The position numbers were made by a program, and so were the translations under genes. Of a DNA stretch of 64,000 nucleotides, positions 1,144 through 13,759 are shown piece after piece. Origin of the DNA: a virus; the IMG/VR virus record IMGVR_UViG_3300007735_000804, positions 62,001 through 126,000 of that record. The stretch is one strand, 5' to 3'. The notes beneath the pieces were generated by a model. It saw only the letters and a list, made by a program, of their open reading frames with translations, was not told the DNA's origin and made no database searches. How positions within the stretch are numbered: the stretch's first letter is position 1; each line of letters starts with the position of its first letter.

Positions 1144-1339
1144 AATCTGCTGGATGATACTTCAAATATTCTCTAAAGGTGAGTTTCATTTCTTTCTGCG
1201 TCATACCACAATGCTTTGCGGCAGCAGGTATAGTCATTTTTGCACGGAAAAGTGCTTCGTTTGCTTCTTTTACATTTTCAGGAGTTGTCTTCACGGGAAC
1301 TTCGTAAAGAGATGCCTTATCAATTTTGAGCAGACTCAT
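1130..1339 (-). CDS. Small helix-turn-helix-like protein, unknown function
   Basis: A 69-residue ORF starts at an ATGA overlap with the gp44 stop (4 nt) and overlaps dam by 14 nt, so it is tightly coupled in the clamp-loader operon. The C-terminal half (ipAAAkhCGMTQkEMkltF) reads like a compact helix-turn-helix of the sort found in small DNA-binding or homing-associated modules. The rest is charged, with no membrane segment. It occupies the place where gp62 follows gp44 in T4, but gp62 is clearly further downstream, so this is a separate gene. A regulatory or DNA-binding role is inference only. Confidence 0.7.
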   Translation of the reverse strand: MSLLKIDKASLYEVPVKTTPENVKEANEALFRAKMTIPAAAKHCGMTQKEMKLTFREYLKYHPADYEVS

Positions 1340-2286
1340 TTAAACTCACACTCCACCATAATCTCAGTCAGACAGGCAAGCATATTTATTTCTTGATCTG
1401 CTACGAACGCACTCTGATACTGATACTTAGCAAGAACAAGCACAGCAGCAGGAATACTATTGTTTTCAAGGGTGCTATAAAGAGCATCGTAAATACGGCG
1501 CAACAATAAAGTAATATCATTGTCCATATTAGCCACCACCCACTTCCGAACTTCAGGGAAGTTCTTTTCTTTAAGGTTTTGAAGAAGATCATTTACAGCA
1601 ACATCGGAGAAAGTAGCAAGAATTCCAGAATCAATTTGCCCACTTACGGAGTATCGTTGGCACTCATTGAGAACTCGCCTGAAATCGGGAAAATGTTTTG
1701 ATACCAATTCAATAAGAACTTTTTGATCATATGCAATTTTTTCATTATCTAGGATAGTTTGCAACCGTTTAAAAAAAGAACTTGCTAGTTGTGCCTTTTC
1801 TTTACCCTTTAAACTAAAATCAACAACTGCACAACGAGAATGTAATGGTTCAATTATTTTATTTTTATAATTACACGTAAAAATAAACCTACAATTGTTA
1901 TAAAACGTTTCAATATTTGCTCTTAGCAAAAGTTGAACATCATTACCTGTGTTGTCTGCCTCATCTATGATAATGATTTTATGTTTAGAGTCTGCGGTTA
2001 ATGAAACCGTTGATGCAAAGTTTTTTGCTTGATTTCTTACTGTATCAAGAAATCGACCTTCATCGGACCCATTGATTACATAATAATCTGCACCTAATTC
2101 ATTACAAAGTGCCTTTGCAATTGTAGTTTTACCAATACCAGGAGGTCCAGCAAGAAGGAGATTGGGAATCTCTCCTTTACTAACAAAATCATTAAAAGTT
2201 TTTTTAGTATCGTCTGGAAGAATACATTCGTCAATAGTTTGAGGTCTGTATTTTTCCACGAACAAGAATGAATTGTTGCTATTCAT
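1336..2286 (-). CDS. 44: Sliding clamp loader large subunit gp44
   Basis: This is a 316-residue AAA+ ATPase, close to T4 gp44 in length. Visible motifs are Walker A GPPGIGKT at residues 47-54, Walker B IIIIDEAD with D108/E109, a sensor-type TCN near 137-139, and the SRC arginine-finger motif at 150-152 typical of clamp loaders. With gp62 it hydrolyses ATP to open gp45 and place it at primer-template junctions. It is followed by the 69-residue ORF in an ATGA overlap. The GIY-YIG endonuclease gene sits directly upstream, so gp44 is probably also read from promoters beyond that insertion. Confidence 0.96.
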   Translation of the reverse strand: MNSNNSFLFVEKYRPQTIDECILPDDTKKTFNDFVSKGEIPNLLLAGPPGIGKTTIAKALCNELGADYYVINGSDEGRFLDTVRNQAKNFASTVSLTADSKHKIIIIDEADNTGNDVQLLLRANIETFYNNCRFIFTCNYKNKIIEPLHSRCAVVDFSLKGKEKAQLASSFFKRLQTILDNEKIAYDQKVLIELVSKHFPDFRRVLNECQRYSVSGQIDSGILATFSDVAVNDLLQNLKEKNFPEVRKWVVANMDNDITLLLRRIYDALYSTLENNSIPAAVLVLAKYQYQSAFVADQEINMLACLTEIMVECEFK

Positions 2287-2301: not shown

Positions 2302-2835
2302 TCAAAGGTAATAATAATTTGAGAATGATTTACTTCTCATTCTCCAACTCACAGTATCTTTGTGGATACCAAGCATTCTAGCACATTCTTTTACAGATTC
2401 ATAAGTCACACCATCAACTGAACACTTTTTGCTCATAGATTTTGAAAGATTTTTTTTATGTTTGTCGGTAAGAGAAATTCCTTTATTTGGATGAGTATTA
2501 TTTTTCCAATATTTTTTTTGAGACTTACGCATTTTCTCAATGGAATCTTTCGTGTGTTTTGCTCCCCATAATGAATTTAAGGAAGGATTTAACCACTCAC
2601 AATATTGTTGTTCTACTGATTTAATTTCTTCATCTTCGTGAATCCACTTAACTACTTCAATAGTAAAATTATGGTATCCATACTTTAAAAAATTTTTATA
2701 AAGTTTGGGACAATCCATCTTATTAGAAGCACACATCGTTATATGTTTAGCAAACCTAAGCATATAATTTTTTTCAGTAGAACCTATGTAGTTTTCTCCT
2801 GTTATTTTATTTCTTATTTGATAAATGCAACTCAT
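2302..2835 (-). CDS. GIY-YIG homing-type endonuclease (Seg-like)
   Basis: The 177-residue protein begins CIYQIRNKITGENYIGS, the GIY-YIG nuclease core (Y5, Y16-I17-G18), with a conserved arginine at R27 (MLRFAKH). The middle (NTHPNKGISLTDKHKKNLS) looks like the NUMOD3 DNA-binding repeat. The end (DGVTYESVKECARMLGIHKDTVSWRM) looks like a NUMOD1 helix-turn-helix. This is the architecture of free-standing phage homing endonucleases such as T4 Seg proteins. It is inserted between gp44 and a conserved unknown gene with no sign of an intron. It has its own late promoter and a hairpin over the start codon (see 2829-2883). Confidence 0.93.
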   Translation of the reverse strand: MSCIYQIRNKITGENYIGSTEKNYMLRFAKHITMCASNKMDCPKLYKNFLKYGYHNFTIEVVKWIHEDEEIKSVEQQYCEWLNPSLNSLWGAKHTKDSIEKMRKSQKKYWKNNTHPNKGISLTDKHKKNLSKSMSKKCSVDGVTYESVKECARMLGIHKDTVSWRMRSKSFSNYYYL

Positions 2836-2883
2836 TTACTAAACCTCGTAGTATAATACTATTTAGCAAATGAGTTATTTATA
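2829..2883 (-). promoter_or_regulatory. Late promoter plus start-codon hairpin of the GIY-YIG gene
   Basis: On the minus strand TATAAATA (2876-2883) overlaps the upstream stop codon. It is followed by a 15-bp inverted repeat, 5' arm 2862-2876 and 3' arm 2829-2843, perfect except for one G-U pair. The 18-nt loop holds the GAGG ribosome binding site, and the 3' arm contains the ATG at 2833-2835. A second late-like box CTAAATAGTA (2857-2866) lies across the 5' arm and loop. Read-through RNA would fold and hide the start, whereas RNA begun at the late promoter(s) would lack some or all of the 5' arm. Confidence 0.75.
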
Positions 2884-3391
2884 CCCATTCTGGTCGTCTT
2901 TCGGGCATACGAAGGTAGTTGTCCTTCACCCAAGGTTTTGAAGCAATATACCTTTTATAAGCAGTAAAGGTATCAATGCTATCGTCAAATTTCCACTTTT
3001 CAGGCATTGCCCTAGCGAATGGAGTCACTTCAGTTATCTTTCCTTTGGGGAAAAGATAATAGGCATCTACAAGAGTCTTGTAGCAAGAGTGAGTCTTATT
3101 ATAGCGTAAAGCATACTCATCACATAAGTTCATCCCCCACTTAATTAACCAATAGGCATTGTGGATACTATCCATTGCCCATTTGGTACAAGGATGATTA
3201 CGAAACGCACCCTTTTCAGTTCTGTAGGGAGTACCATCAGTTTTAGGAAGAGTGCCGTAGTTATGACCCCATTTTTCAGATGCCACAATGGAAAGCATTT
3301 GGCAGCATTCCAGGGGCATCTTGACAATGTGTTTGTCGGGCAGGCATACAGCACTTTCAGCGGGCCAAGGTGAGGTTACAAAGATGTTCAT
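2879..3391 (-). CDS. Conserved phage protein of unknown function (170 aa)
   Basis: The natural ATG is at 3389-3391, giving MNIFVTSPWPAESA; its last base is shared with the TAA of the upstream ORF (TAATG junction). The protein contains LPDKHIVKMPLECCQML early on, conserved tryptophans (KWAMDSIHNAYWLIKWG) and a C-terminal RRPEW. I recognise this as a family common in marine and freshwater phages that starts with a DKHxVKMxLExxQ motif, but I do not know a proven function. The conserved D, H, K and E residues would fit an enzyme. It lies in the replication operon between the gp45 neighbours and the inserted GIY-YIG gene. Confidence 0.85.
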   Translation of the reverse strand: MNIFVTSPWPAESAVCLPDKHIVKMPLECCQMLSIVASEKWGHNYGTLPKTDGTPYRTEKGAFRNHPCTKWAMDSIHNAYWLIKWGMNLCDEYALRYNKTHSCYKTLVDAYYLFPKGKITEVTPFARAMPEKWKFDDSIDTFTAYKRYIASKPWVKDNYLRMPERRPEWV

Positions 3392-3813
3392 TAAAAACAA
3401 TACTTCTGAAGTACATACTTAACTTTGTCTGGTTTATCTTCCATCCAATAAGCTTCGTGCTCTATTTTAACAGAAGAAGTAGATGCACTTACAGAATTTT
3501 TAACATCTTGAAGTTTATTTGCTGGAAGGTTCATATCTTTTAGAGGAATACCAAAAGGTTTATAACCATTACACATATGAGCTACGTGTGTAGCTTCGTG
3601 ATATACGGTTTCATTGGTATAATACTTTGGTTCATATCCACTCCTCTTAATATTTTTAGTGCATATTACAAATTTTTTTCCAAAATCTGCATAACCAAAA
3701 ATATCTTTATTACTCCTACAATACCCAACATTTTCTTGAACAGAATATTTTGCTTTATAAACTTGATTTAAAATGTCTTGGGCTTGAGGAGTAAGATAAA
3801 GAAGAAATTCCAT
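3391..3813 (-). CDS. Small putative zinc metallopeptidase-like protein
   Basis: The 140-residue protein starts at ATG 3811-3813, overlapping the gp45 stop (TGATG). It contains VYHEATHVAH, a HExxH zinc-binding motif at about residues 72-76. A downstream KIEHEAYWMED could supply a third ligand (E or H near 118-120). The fold resembles minimal gluzincin-like domains, but the sequence is otherwise unfamiliar. There is no signal peptide or membrane segment, so it would act in the cytoplasm. Its coupling to the sliding clamp gene is notable. Proteolytic activity is inference from the motif alone; it could be an inactive metal-binding protein. Confidence 0.8.
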   Translation of the reverse strand: MEFLLYLTPQAQDILNQVYKAKYSVQENVGYCRSNKDIFGYADFGKKFVICTKNIKRSGYEPKYYTNETVYHEATHVAHMCNGYKPFGIPLKDMNLPANKLQDVKNSVSASTSSVKIEHEAYWMEDKPDKVKYVLQKYCF

Positions 3814-4499
3814 CAACCAAAAGTGGAATCGGGTTCCAGAGCAATATAATACTTCAGGTTATACTTGGTATTCGTGAATTGTGACAGAAGTTTAGAAGAT
3901 ACCACCACATCATAAGCACCAGGAATAATCTTGATATTTTCTACCTTGAAGTTAAAAATGAATTCAGCATCGGTCTCACCAACCACAATGGCATATTCGT
4001 TAGAAGTATCATTCTTCTTATCACGAACCACCAGTTTGATTACACCATTCTCACCAACCGCAGACAGGTCAGGCAGTTGATACACTGCTGCTGCCTTTAC
4101 CAGTTTCTCCAGAGAGGTACTATCCAGTTGGAAGCAAACATCTGCTGAAGGCAGTTGAATTGCCTTATCAGGAGGAGAAATAATGACGTTAGGGTCAGCA
4201 TAGAAATACTTTACCCGACGCTTACCTTCCTTGATGCTCAAATAAGATTCTTCAGTAAAGTCAAGATCAGGATCCTGATGAAGTCCCAGACCATTCAGAA
4301 ACTGGTTCAAGTCGTAGATAGCAAAGTCACGAGGAAACTCTTCGGTGATGTCTGCTTCCGCAAGAATATTCTTTGCCACAGAAATGGTACGAAGTTGAGT
4401 ACCCTGTTTCACAAGAATTGAGTTGTTGATACCTGCAAAGTTCTTGAGAAGGGCAAGGGTGTTATCAGAGAGTTTCATAGTTTTGTTTTGAATTTTCAT
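3813..4499 (-). CDS. 45: DNA polymerase sliding clamp gp45
   Basis: The block MKLSDNTLALLKNFAGIN aligns by eye with T4 gp45 (MKLSKDTTALLKNFATIN). Further conserved parts are FAIYDLNQFL, YFYADPNVI and the C-terminal ALEPDST. The trimeric ring tethers the polymerase and, in T4, also activates late transcription with gp55 and gp33. An in-frame ATG at 4497-4499 lies 2 nt after the upstream stop, and the T4-like start MKLS is at 4476-4478. Neither has an obvious Shine-Dalgarno, so the start is uncertain by seven codons. The next gene overlaps its stop. Confidence 0.93.
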   Translation of the reverse strand: MKIQNKTMKLSDNTLALLKNFAGINNSILVKQGTQLRTISVAKNILAEADITEEFPRDFAIYDLNQFLNGLGLHQDPDLDFTEESYLSIKEGKRRVKYFYADPNVIISPPDKAIQLPSADVCFQLDSTSLEKLVKAAAVYQLPDLSAVGENGVIKLVVRDKKNDTSNEYAIVVGETDAEFIFNFKVENIKIIPGAYDVVVSSKLLSQFTNTKYNLKYYIALEPDSTFG

Positions 4500-13130: not shown

Positions 13131-13715
13131 TTAACTAGATTTCAAGTATAACACAGCAGACTCAAGAAAGTCAATGTTATCAAAAAACATTCCCAAACCA
13201 ATATTACAATTTTTACACAATAATCCTCTAATTTTTCCAGTTTCATGATTATGGTCTACTGCTAAACTTTTTCCAGTAGGACATTCATTATTACATATTT
13301 TACATTTTTCATTTTGCTTTTCTAACAAAAAATTATAATCTTCTAAAGTAATTCCATAATTTGTCTGTAAATAAGTATCTTTTACATTATCTTTGTTGTT
13401 ATAATAGTATTCTCTACATTTTTGTTTAGCAATATCATTTTTATATTGCTCTTGATATTTTTCAGGATTTTTTGCTCTCCACTCATCCAATTTCTTTTTC
13501 TTCTTTTCCTTTGTCCTATAAGGTTTCATCAACTCTTCATTATTGAGTTTTTCTAACCCTTTCCTTTTTAAACAAGGAGCACAACTAGAAGTAGAAACAT
13601 ACTTTTCATAACTACCACAATGTTTACAAGCAGTAGAACCGATATAAGTTTTTTTACCTTCTTTTATTGCTTGCAATCTATTTTGTCTTCCAACACCACT
13701 ATATTGATTGGTCAT
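13131..13715 (-). CDS. HNH/endonuclease VII-like homing-type nuclease
   Basis: In this 194-residue protein the C-terminal half carries the endonuclease VII-type signature CKICN, then LAVDHNHETGKIRGLLC and CKNCNIGLG: two zinc CxxC pairs flanking a DHxH core. The N-terminus has a second possible zinc finger (CKHCG with CAPC). A long basic helix (KEKKKKKLDEWRAKNPEKY) lies between. Free-standing enzymes of this type act as homing endonucleases or resolvases in phages. It is inserted between gp55 and gp47 with its own late promoter and an RBS-masking hairpin. Confidence 0.88.
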   Translation of the reverse strand: MTNQYSGVGRQNRLQAIKEGKKTYIGSTACKHCGSYEKYVSTSSCAPCLKRKGLEKLNNEELMKPYRTKEKKKKKLDEWRAKNPEKYQEQYKNDIAKQKCREYYYNNKDNVKDTYLQTNYGITLEDYNFLLEKQNEKCKICNNECPTGKSLAVDHNHETGKIRGLLCKNCNIGLGMFFDNIDFLESAVLYLKSS

Positions 13716-13759
13716 AATGCTCCGTAATGTTATTATTATTTATAACACTTTGGAGCAAT
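13716..13759 (-). promoter_or_regulatory. Late promoter inside an RBS-masking hairpin, HNH gene
   Basis: On the minus strand TTGCTCC (upstream) can pair through TGCTCC with GGAGCA just before the ATG, closing a 28-nt loop (13724-13751) that contains TATAAATA (13737-13744). The GGAG in the 3' arm is the ribosome binding site. Transcripts started from the late promoter would lack the 5' arm, leaving the site free; read-through transcripts from gp55 would hide it. Confidence 0.7.

Follow-up and report, generated by a model that had tools for sequence, protein, structure and literature searches.

A cyanophage GIY-YIG nuclease gene with a predicted T4 I-TevI-type early-off/late-on switch at the edge of its mobile cassette

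A gene for a free-standing GIY-YIG homing-type endonuclease (177 aa; 2302..2835, minus strand) is preceded by a hairpin that pairs its start codon and that is itself crossed by a late-promoter box. The gene lies in the 64,000-nucleotide stretch of DNA analysed here (the window), part of a 213-kb virus record with a T4-like cyanophage gene set. The best reading, which we regard as probable, is that the nuclease cassette carries its own early-off/late-on switch of the T4 I-TevI type, because the start site is closed in long RNA, a late box is present, the cost of opening drops in the predicted late RNA and the leader is kept with the gene. The sequence elements, thermodynamics, motif enrichment, conservation and cassette boundary are observed directly; from them we infer the two transcripts, the late timing and the actual difference in translation. 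Early or middle RNA from the upstream replication genes would read through and carry both hairpin arms, so that the start codon would be paired and little nuclease made. RNA polymerase carrying the late factors of the phage would later initiate at CTAAATA inside the hairpin, at the late stage of infection, giving an RNA that begins near 2854, lacks the 5' arm and would present a usable start site.

The gene had been called a GIY-YIG homing endonuclease from the sequence, and the domain matches agree. Pfam identifies a GIY-YIG domain (2.7e-9) and a C-terminal I-TevI-type DNA-binding domain (PF20987, I-TevI_DNA-bd, 3.8e-7, residues 130-176), and the PHROG 'homing endonuclease' matches at 1.6e-20. 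I-TevI is the only PDB match and a weak one (E about 0.03, single-sequence search); a PDB profile search with the alignment of relatives gave nothing at E < 0.01, weaker than the single-sequence I-TevI matches. Residues Y5, Y16, R27, H31 and E75 are invariant in 20 relatives, the GIY-YIG catalytic Tyr, Arg and Glu thus being conserved. We regard the gene as free-standing because an RNA family search revealed no group I intron or other known RNA family near the nuclease gene or its hairpin. The enzyme is presumably active in homing.

The nearest cultured relatives of the virus are Synechococcus phages, e.g. S-SRM01, whose host is Synechococcus KCZYC6, and the genome of our virus encodes gp55 and gp33 (tblastn). 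On the minus strand the gene order is gp45, a small ORF, a Pyr_excise (denV-like) gene, the nuclease gene, gp44, a short ORF and a Dam-type methylase gene. The upstream neighbour is the denV-like gene (2879..3400, Pfam 2.2e-16), read-through RNA from which would include the nuclease hairpin; the downstream neighbour is the gp44-like clamp-loader gene (1336..2286, Pfam Gp44_lid 3.7e-18). A sigma-70-like promoter (TTGACC-17-TATAAT with TG, 4907-4879, minus strand) lies 2 kb upstream on the same strand as the nuclease. It matches at 11 of 12 positions and is the best of 15 in the region, where promoter-like hits are no commoner than in shuffles; it is a candidate source of an early read-through RNA spanning gp45, orf141, the denV-like gene, the nuclease gene and gp44. 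The small ORF between gp45 and the denV-like gene (3391-3816, minus strand) has a HEATH metallopeptidase-like motif and belongs to a PHROG of unknown function. The nuclease gene has a terminator-like stem (2321-2344, minus strand), GAGAATGA...TCATTCTC followed by AAATTATTATT, at its 3' end, immediately ahead of gp44.

The original prediction described a 15-bp inverted repeat with one G-U pair that encloses GAGG and has the ATG in its 3' arm, and all of these elements were found at the coordinates given, on the minus strand. The 5' arm (2862..2876) and the 3' arm (2829..2843) are 15 nt each and form 14 Watson-Crick pairs and one G-U pair around an 18-nt loop. The 3' arm holds the ATG (2835-2833) and codon 2. 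The GAGG Shine-Dalgarno (2844..2847, 8 nt before the ATG) sits in the loop, and ribosomes may therefore still dock. The repeat by itself is unremarkable, since about eight inverted repeats as good occur in the 64-kb window. Its effect on the start region is distinctive. Opening positions -13 to +13 costs 17.8 kcal/mol, compared with 6.9 ± 2.0 when the 43-nt leader is dinucleotide-shuffled (0 of 2000 shuffles as high); the whole region has an MFE z of -2.67, reached by none of 200 shuffles, and the start-site closure ranks fifth among 244 ORFs of the 213-kb genome. According to these folding models, the start codon is closed far above chance in the long RNA. Covariation gives the stem no support: among 21 distinct, modestly diverged leaders no pair has changed on both sides, and stem variation in the relatives is mostly to G-U or single mismatches, with one to three mismatches in several lineages. 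A role of the hairpin as a terminator was considered and rejected, as a scan for terminators did not list it and the stem is not followed by a T-run.

A de novo count of upstream words over all ORFs, made with no prior motif, was topped by ATAAATA and CTAAATA. ATAAATA occurs no more than 80 nt before the start of 31 genes (2.9 expected) and CTAAATA before 11 (1.4 expected); the GTAAATA, TTAAATA and TAAATT forms are not enriched before genes of this genome. The late promoter reported for cyanophages is NATAAATA, and g55, g33 and g45 occur in all cyanomyoviruses (PMC2984593). Enrichment, the presence of gp55 and gp33 and conservation of the box in relatives support the assignment of [A/C]TAAATA as the putative late promoter of this phage. 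The box expected to cross the 5' arm is present: CTAAATAGTA (2866-2857, minus strand), which includes CTAAATA (2860..2866), crosses the end of the arm. It occurs three times in the 213 kb, and every copy is just upstream of a gene. Late boxes in the genome usually stand about 18-28 nt from the start codon, and that of the nuclease stands at 24 nt.

T4 late promoters initiate about six bases past the box. We therefore place the 5' end near 2854, downstream of the entire 5' arm, leaving a 19-nt leader. Initiation at this predicted 5' end would remove one hairpin arm; the assignment of the box as a late promoter has de novo enrichment, its position, gp55/gp33 and its conservation in its favour. 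Opening the start site would cost about 15-18 kcal/mol in read-through RNA and 5.5 kcal/mol in the predicted late RNA. The drop of 12.3 kcal/mol is the largest among the 38 late-promoter genes of the genome, in a ranking that was inspected after the fact. The predicted late leader still folds a small hairpin over the AUG (-5 kcal/mol).

Close relatives in IMG/VR number 46. The leader could be aligned in 45, and in all 45 CTAAATA is intact and ends 24 nt from the start; the other relative (L013) has an unrelated, non-alignable upstream sequence. When 23 distinct leaders were folded (that of the window and 22 representing the 45 relatives), the stem paired the start region in all but L046, and the predicted gain in opening was only 1-2 kcal/mol in L045 and L046. 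A total of 38 viral contig stretches carry the 22-base core of the leader. With three exceptions these are contigs of the relatives, and in the exceptions the core sits within 100 bases of a contig end. The gene downstream of the nuclease is gp44 wherever the locus covers that side, and the leader is retained behind differing upstream sequences (L001, L002-4, L030/L032, L038). None of 80 loci with a close denV-like gene has the cassette. In 78 of these the junction is HEG-free with gp44 near by (some hold other inserts between) and the leader is absent; the remaining two are a locus cut off just inside gp44 and L176, which has a different, inverted GIY-YIG gene. The nuclease is thus mobile, with occupied sites 5' of gp44 in the IMG/VR relatives versus 78 empty sites. 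Comparison of occupied with empty sites (e.g. L001/L131, L038/L049 and L099) locates the left boundary of the cassette in the first bases of the 5' arm, and consequently the hairpin and promoter travel with the nuclease gene.

The cassette also supplies the last codons (NSFTK-stop or a variant) of an interrupted small upstream ORF (window 2859-2879, L001, L003, L038), the stop of such ORFs being the TAG or TAA inside the late box. The gp44 genes beside the nuclease (window 1336-2286, L001-L046) form two classes, one with about 87-97% and the other with about 55-63% identity to that of the window, while the nuclease is 81-88% identical throughout. This combination suggests exchange between phages. 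Other nuclease genes occupy the same place 5' of gp44. Three loci (L123:2020-2533, L156:1560-2080, L159:2250-2765) have an unrelated HNH-like gene with a 10-12 bp inverted repeat, the right arm of which runs into TATAAATA; the loop is inverted in L123 relative to L156, and L159 has a compensatory change. The different GIY-YIG gene of L176 (2230-2860) lies in reverse orientation. The GTTGAAAAGTATCGCCC in its leader is close to the VEKYRP codons of gp44 and is possibly a homing-site-like operator near its late box.

A further box, noted originally as overlapping the previous stop, is indeed there: TATAAATA (2883-2876, minus strand) covers the TAA at 2881-2879 of the upstream gene. It had led to the suggestion of a switch in two steps, in which TATAAATA would give an intermediate RNA with a shortened stem and CTAAATA an RNA that is fully open. 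TATAAATA matches the late promoter perfectly and is carried by 12 genes versus 0.75 expected, and RNA predicted to start at 2870 has an opening cost of 7.7 kcal/mol, between 16 and 5.5. We nevertheless consider two steps improbable, and this part of the original prediction did not hold up, because the box is found in only 2 of 22 aligned leaders (the window and L046) and is formed at the insertion junction, where host ...GTATAAAT joins the first A of the cassette (host Val codon, stop and A). Leaders that lack it carry TGTAAATA, TTTAAATA, TCTAAATT or unrelated sequence, and such forms show no enrichment upstream of genes in this genome. Empty sites include ...GGGTATAAATTATG, so TATAAAT can be there before insertion, and the box is completed by the first A of the cassette. 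In addition, the box is 40 nt from the ATG, against 18-28 nt for most late boxes, and its predicted RNA keeps a 9-10 bp stem. TATAAATA may fire in the window phage; its conservation pattern argues that it would stand outside the design of the switch.

Three other explanations of the leader have to be weighed against an early-off/late-on switch. Ribosomes finishing the upstream gene might melt the hairpin, which would then enforce translational coupling and not timing. The upstream stop is 2 nt before the 5' arm in the window, and in L001, L003 and L038 the upstream frame runs on into the cassette as far as the TAG or TAA within CTAAATA[G/A]. The same geometry raises a doubt about the switch itself: a ribosome terminating at 2879, the upstream stop, would sit over some of the 5' arm, and melting of the hairpin by ribosomes of the upstream gene is possible. 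Coupling would, however, make a conserved late promoter inside the arm needless, and the leader is retained behind different upstream genes; we think it unlikely as the main function. It is also quite unlikely, in our estimate, that the gene is no more than a late gene, with a pairing that is incidental and held in place by what the promoter and coding sequence require. The strong box, the lack of covariation in the nuclease stem and the many cyanophage nuclease genes with a late box and no hairpin (in S-SRM01, 11 of 15 have the box and few a large drop) would suit such an account. It does not explain why none of 2000 shuffles confined to the flank before CTAAATA closes the start region as tightly, why the outer 5' arm, neither promoter nor coding, is conserved across insertion contexts, or why, of the Ser codons compared at position 2, the AGT of the nuclease closes the start most tightly.

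Finally, the repeat could act in the DNA as an operator through which the nuclease, or some other protein bound there, represses the promoter, as in I-TevI autorepression. The repeat does bracket the promoter, and I-TevI and probably I-TevII and I-TevIII bind operators over their own promoters (PMC2988022). When the leader was compared with the empty gp44 junction, which need not be the true cleavage site, no 20-nt similarity beyond that of shuffles was found, and we judge an operator to be very improbable.

The early-off/late-on reading has well-described precedents. In T4 an I-TevI-type switch is closed in read-through RNA and opened by late initiation (PMC2988022; PMC3014915), and T4 I-TevI, T4 segB and Aeh1 mobE are precedents for hairpin/late-promoter control of homing endonucleases (PMC2988022). 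Like I-TevI of the T4 td intron, the window gene encodes a GIY-YIG nuclease with an I-TevI-type DNA-binding domain, its hairpin would close the start region in read-through RNA and the predicted late RNA loses the 5' arm. Unlike I-TevI, it is free-standing between two genes and not intronic, it has the start codon and not the Shine-Dalgarno in the stem, its box is CTAAATA and no operator-like site was found at the insertion junction. With segB and mobE, which belong to other nuclease families or phages, it shares a free-standing homing-type gene with a start-site hairpin and a (here putative) late promoter; in contrast to both, the 5' arm of its hairpin marks the edge of a mobile cassette that lies beside gp44 in many cyanophages. 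T4 genes e and 49 likewise have closed early RNA and a late promoter that removes one arm, although they are not homing-type, and their hosts and sequences are unrelated to ours; gene 49 encodes endonuclease VII, the type to which a second nuclease gene of the window also belongs (see below). F-CphI of cyanophage S-PM2 is also a free-standing cyanophage homing endonuclease, with an EndoVII motif resembling that second nuclease; it is of a different catalytic family from the GIY-YIG gene, and its paper reports no hairpin. Among the titles returned by a literature search, none describes a hairpin/late-promoter switch on a cyanophage homing endonuclease.

Control of the T4 I-TevI type is thus predicted in a new phage group. 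On the sequence evidence, there are two putative twists to the known switches: it is the start codon that is paired shut, and the switch forms the border of a mobile cassette. If the reading is true, promoter and translational lock move together with the gene, which would explain how it can land in an early replication operon without early expression. Of the free-standing T4-type homing genes, by comparison, some 50% seem to lack a promoter of their own and to be served by phage promoters upstream (PMC2988022).

The next two late-promoter genes by drop in opening cost also encode nucleases. Third in the genome is an EndoVII-motif gene (13131..13715, minus strand, Pfam Endonuclease_7 8.3e-24) directly downstream of gp55. 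It has the same layout as the GIY-YIG gene: its hairpin leader (13716..13757) has arms at 13746-13757 and 13718-13729, TATAAATA between them (13737-13744) and GGAG in the 3' arm. Here compensatory changes are seen in 5 of 13 pairs, with a covariation score that 0 of 500 shuffles attain; the presence of such a covarying leader in this genome suggests that cyanophages are under selection to make nucleases only late. The other is a SegE-type GIY-YIG gene outside the window (L088:1209-1658 = G000:41209-41658), which has a late box and a TAGCTC/GAGCTA-type start-site hairpin. Among distinct SegE leaders, 55 of 56 have the late box, mostly 21-26 nt upstream, and the TAGCTC/GAGCTA-type stem is common. 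We see an even chance that cyanophage nuclease genes of unrelated families (I-TevI-like GIY-YIG, SegE-like GIY-YIG and EndoVII-type) repeatedly have a late promoter within or abutting a start-site hairpin, and that in the gp44-linked cassette the entire switch forms the leading edge, bringing early-off/late-on control to each insertion.

In S-SRM01 a late box precedes 11 of 15 annotated nuclease genes versus 50 of 295 other ORFs (p = 5.5e-6). A general rule that nuclease genes have larger hairpin drops was rejected, as the drops of the S-SRM01 nucleases are not larger than those of other late-promoter genes (p = 0.48). The three largest drops in this phage, again in a ranking inspected after the fact, belong to a GIY-YIG-like ORF, gp253 and gp207. 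In gp207 (L330:26129-26582) overlapping ATAAATA boxes occupy the loop of a long perfect hairpin whose 3' arm holds the ATG, and gp253 (L331:12185-12826) has TATAAATA just before a hairpin that abuts the ATG. With the same layout in gp207 and a related one in gp253 of a cultured phage, the idea of a switch is testable in the laboratory. The first ~74 residues of the EndoVII-motif protein are common to many viral ORFs in which the match ends there (L280-L326), a pattern that looks like the joining of a DNA-binding module, together with its leader, to other domains. The SegE-type gene is labelled 'NAD synthetase' in many public records.
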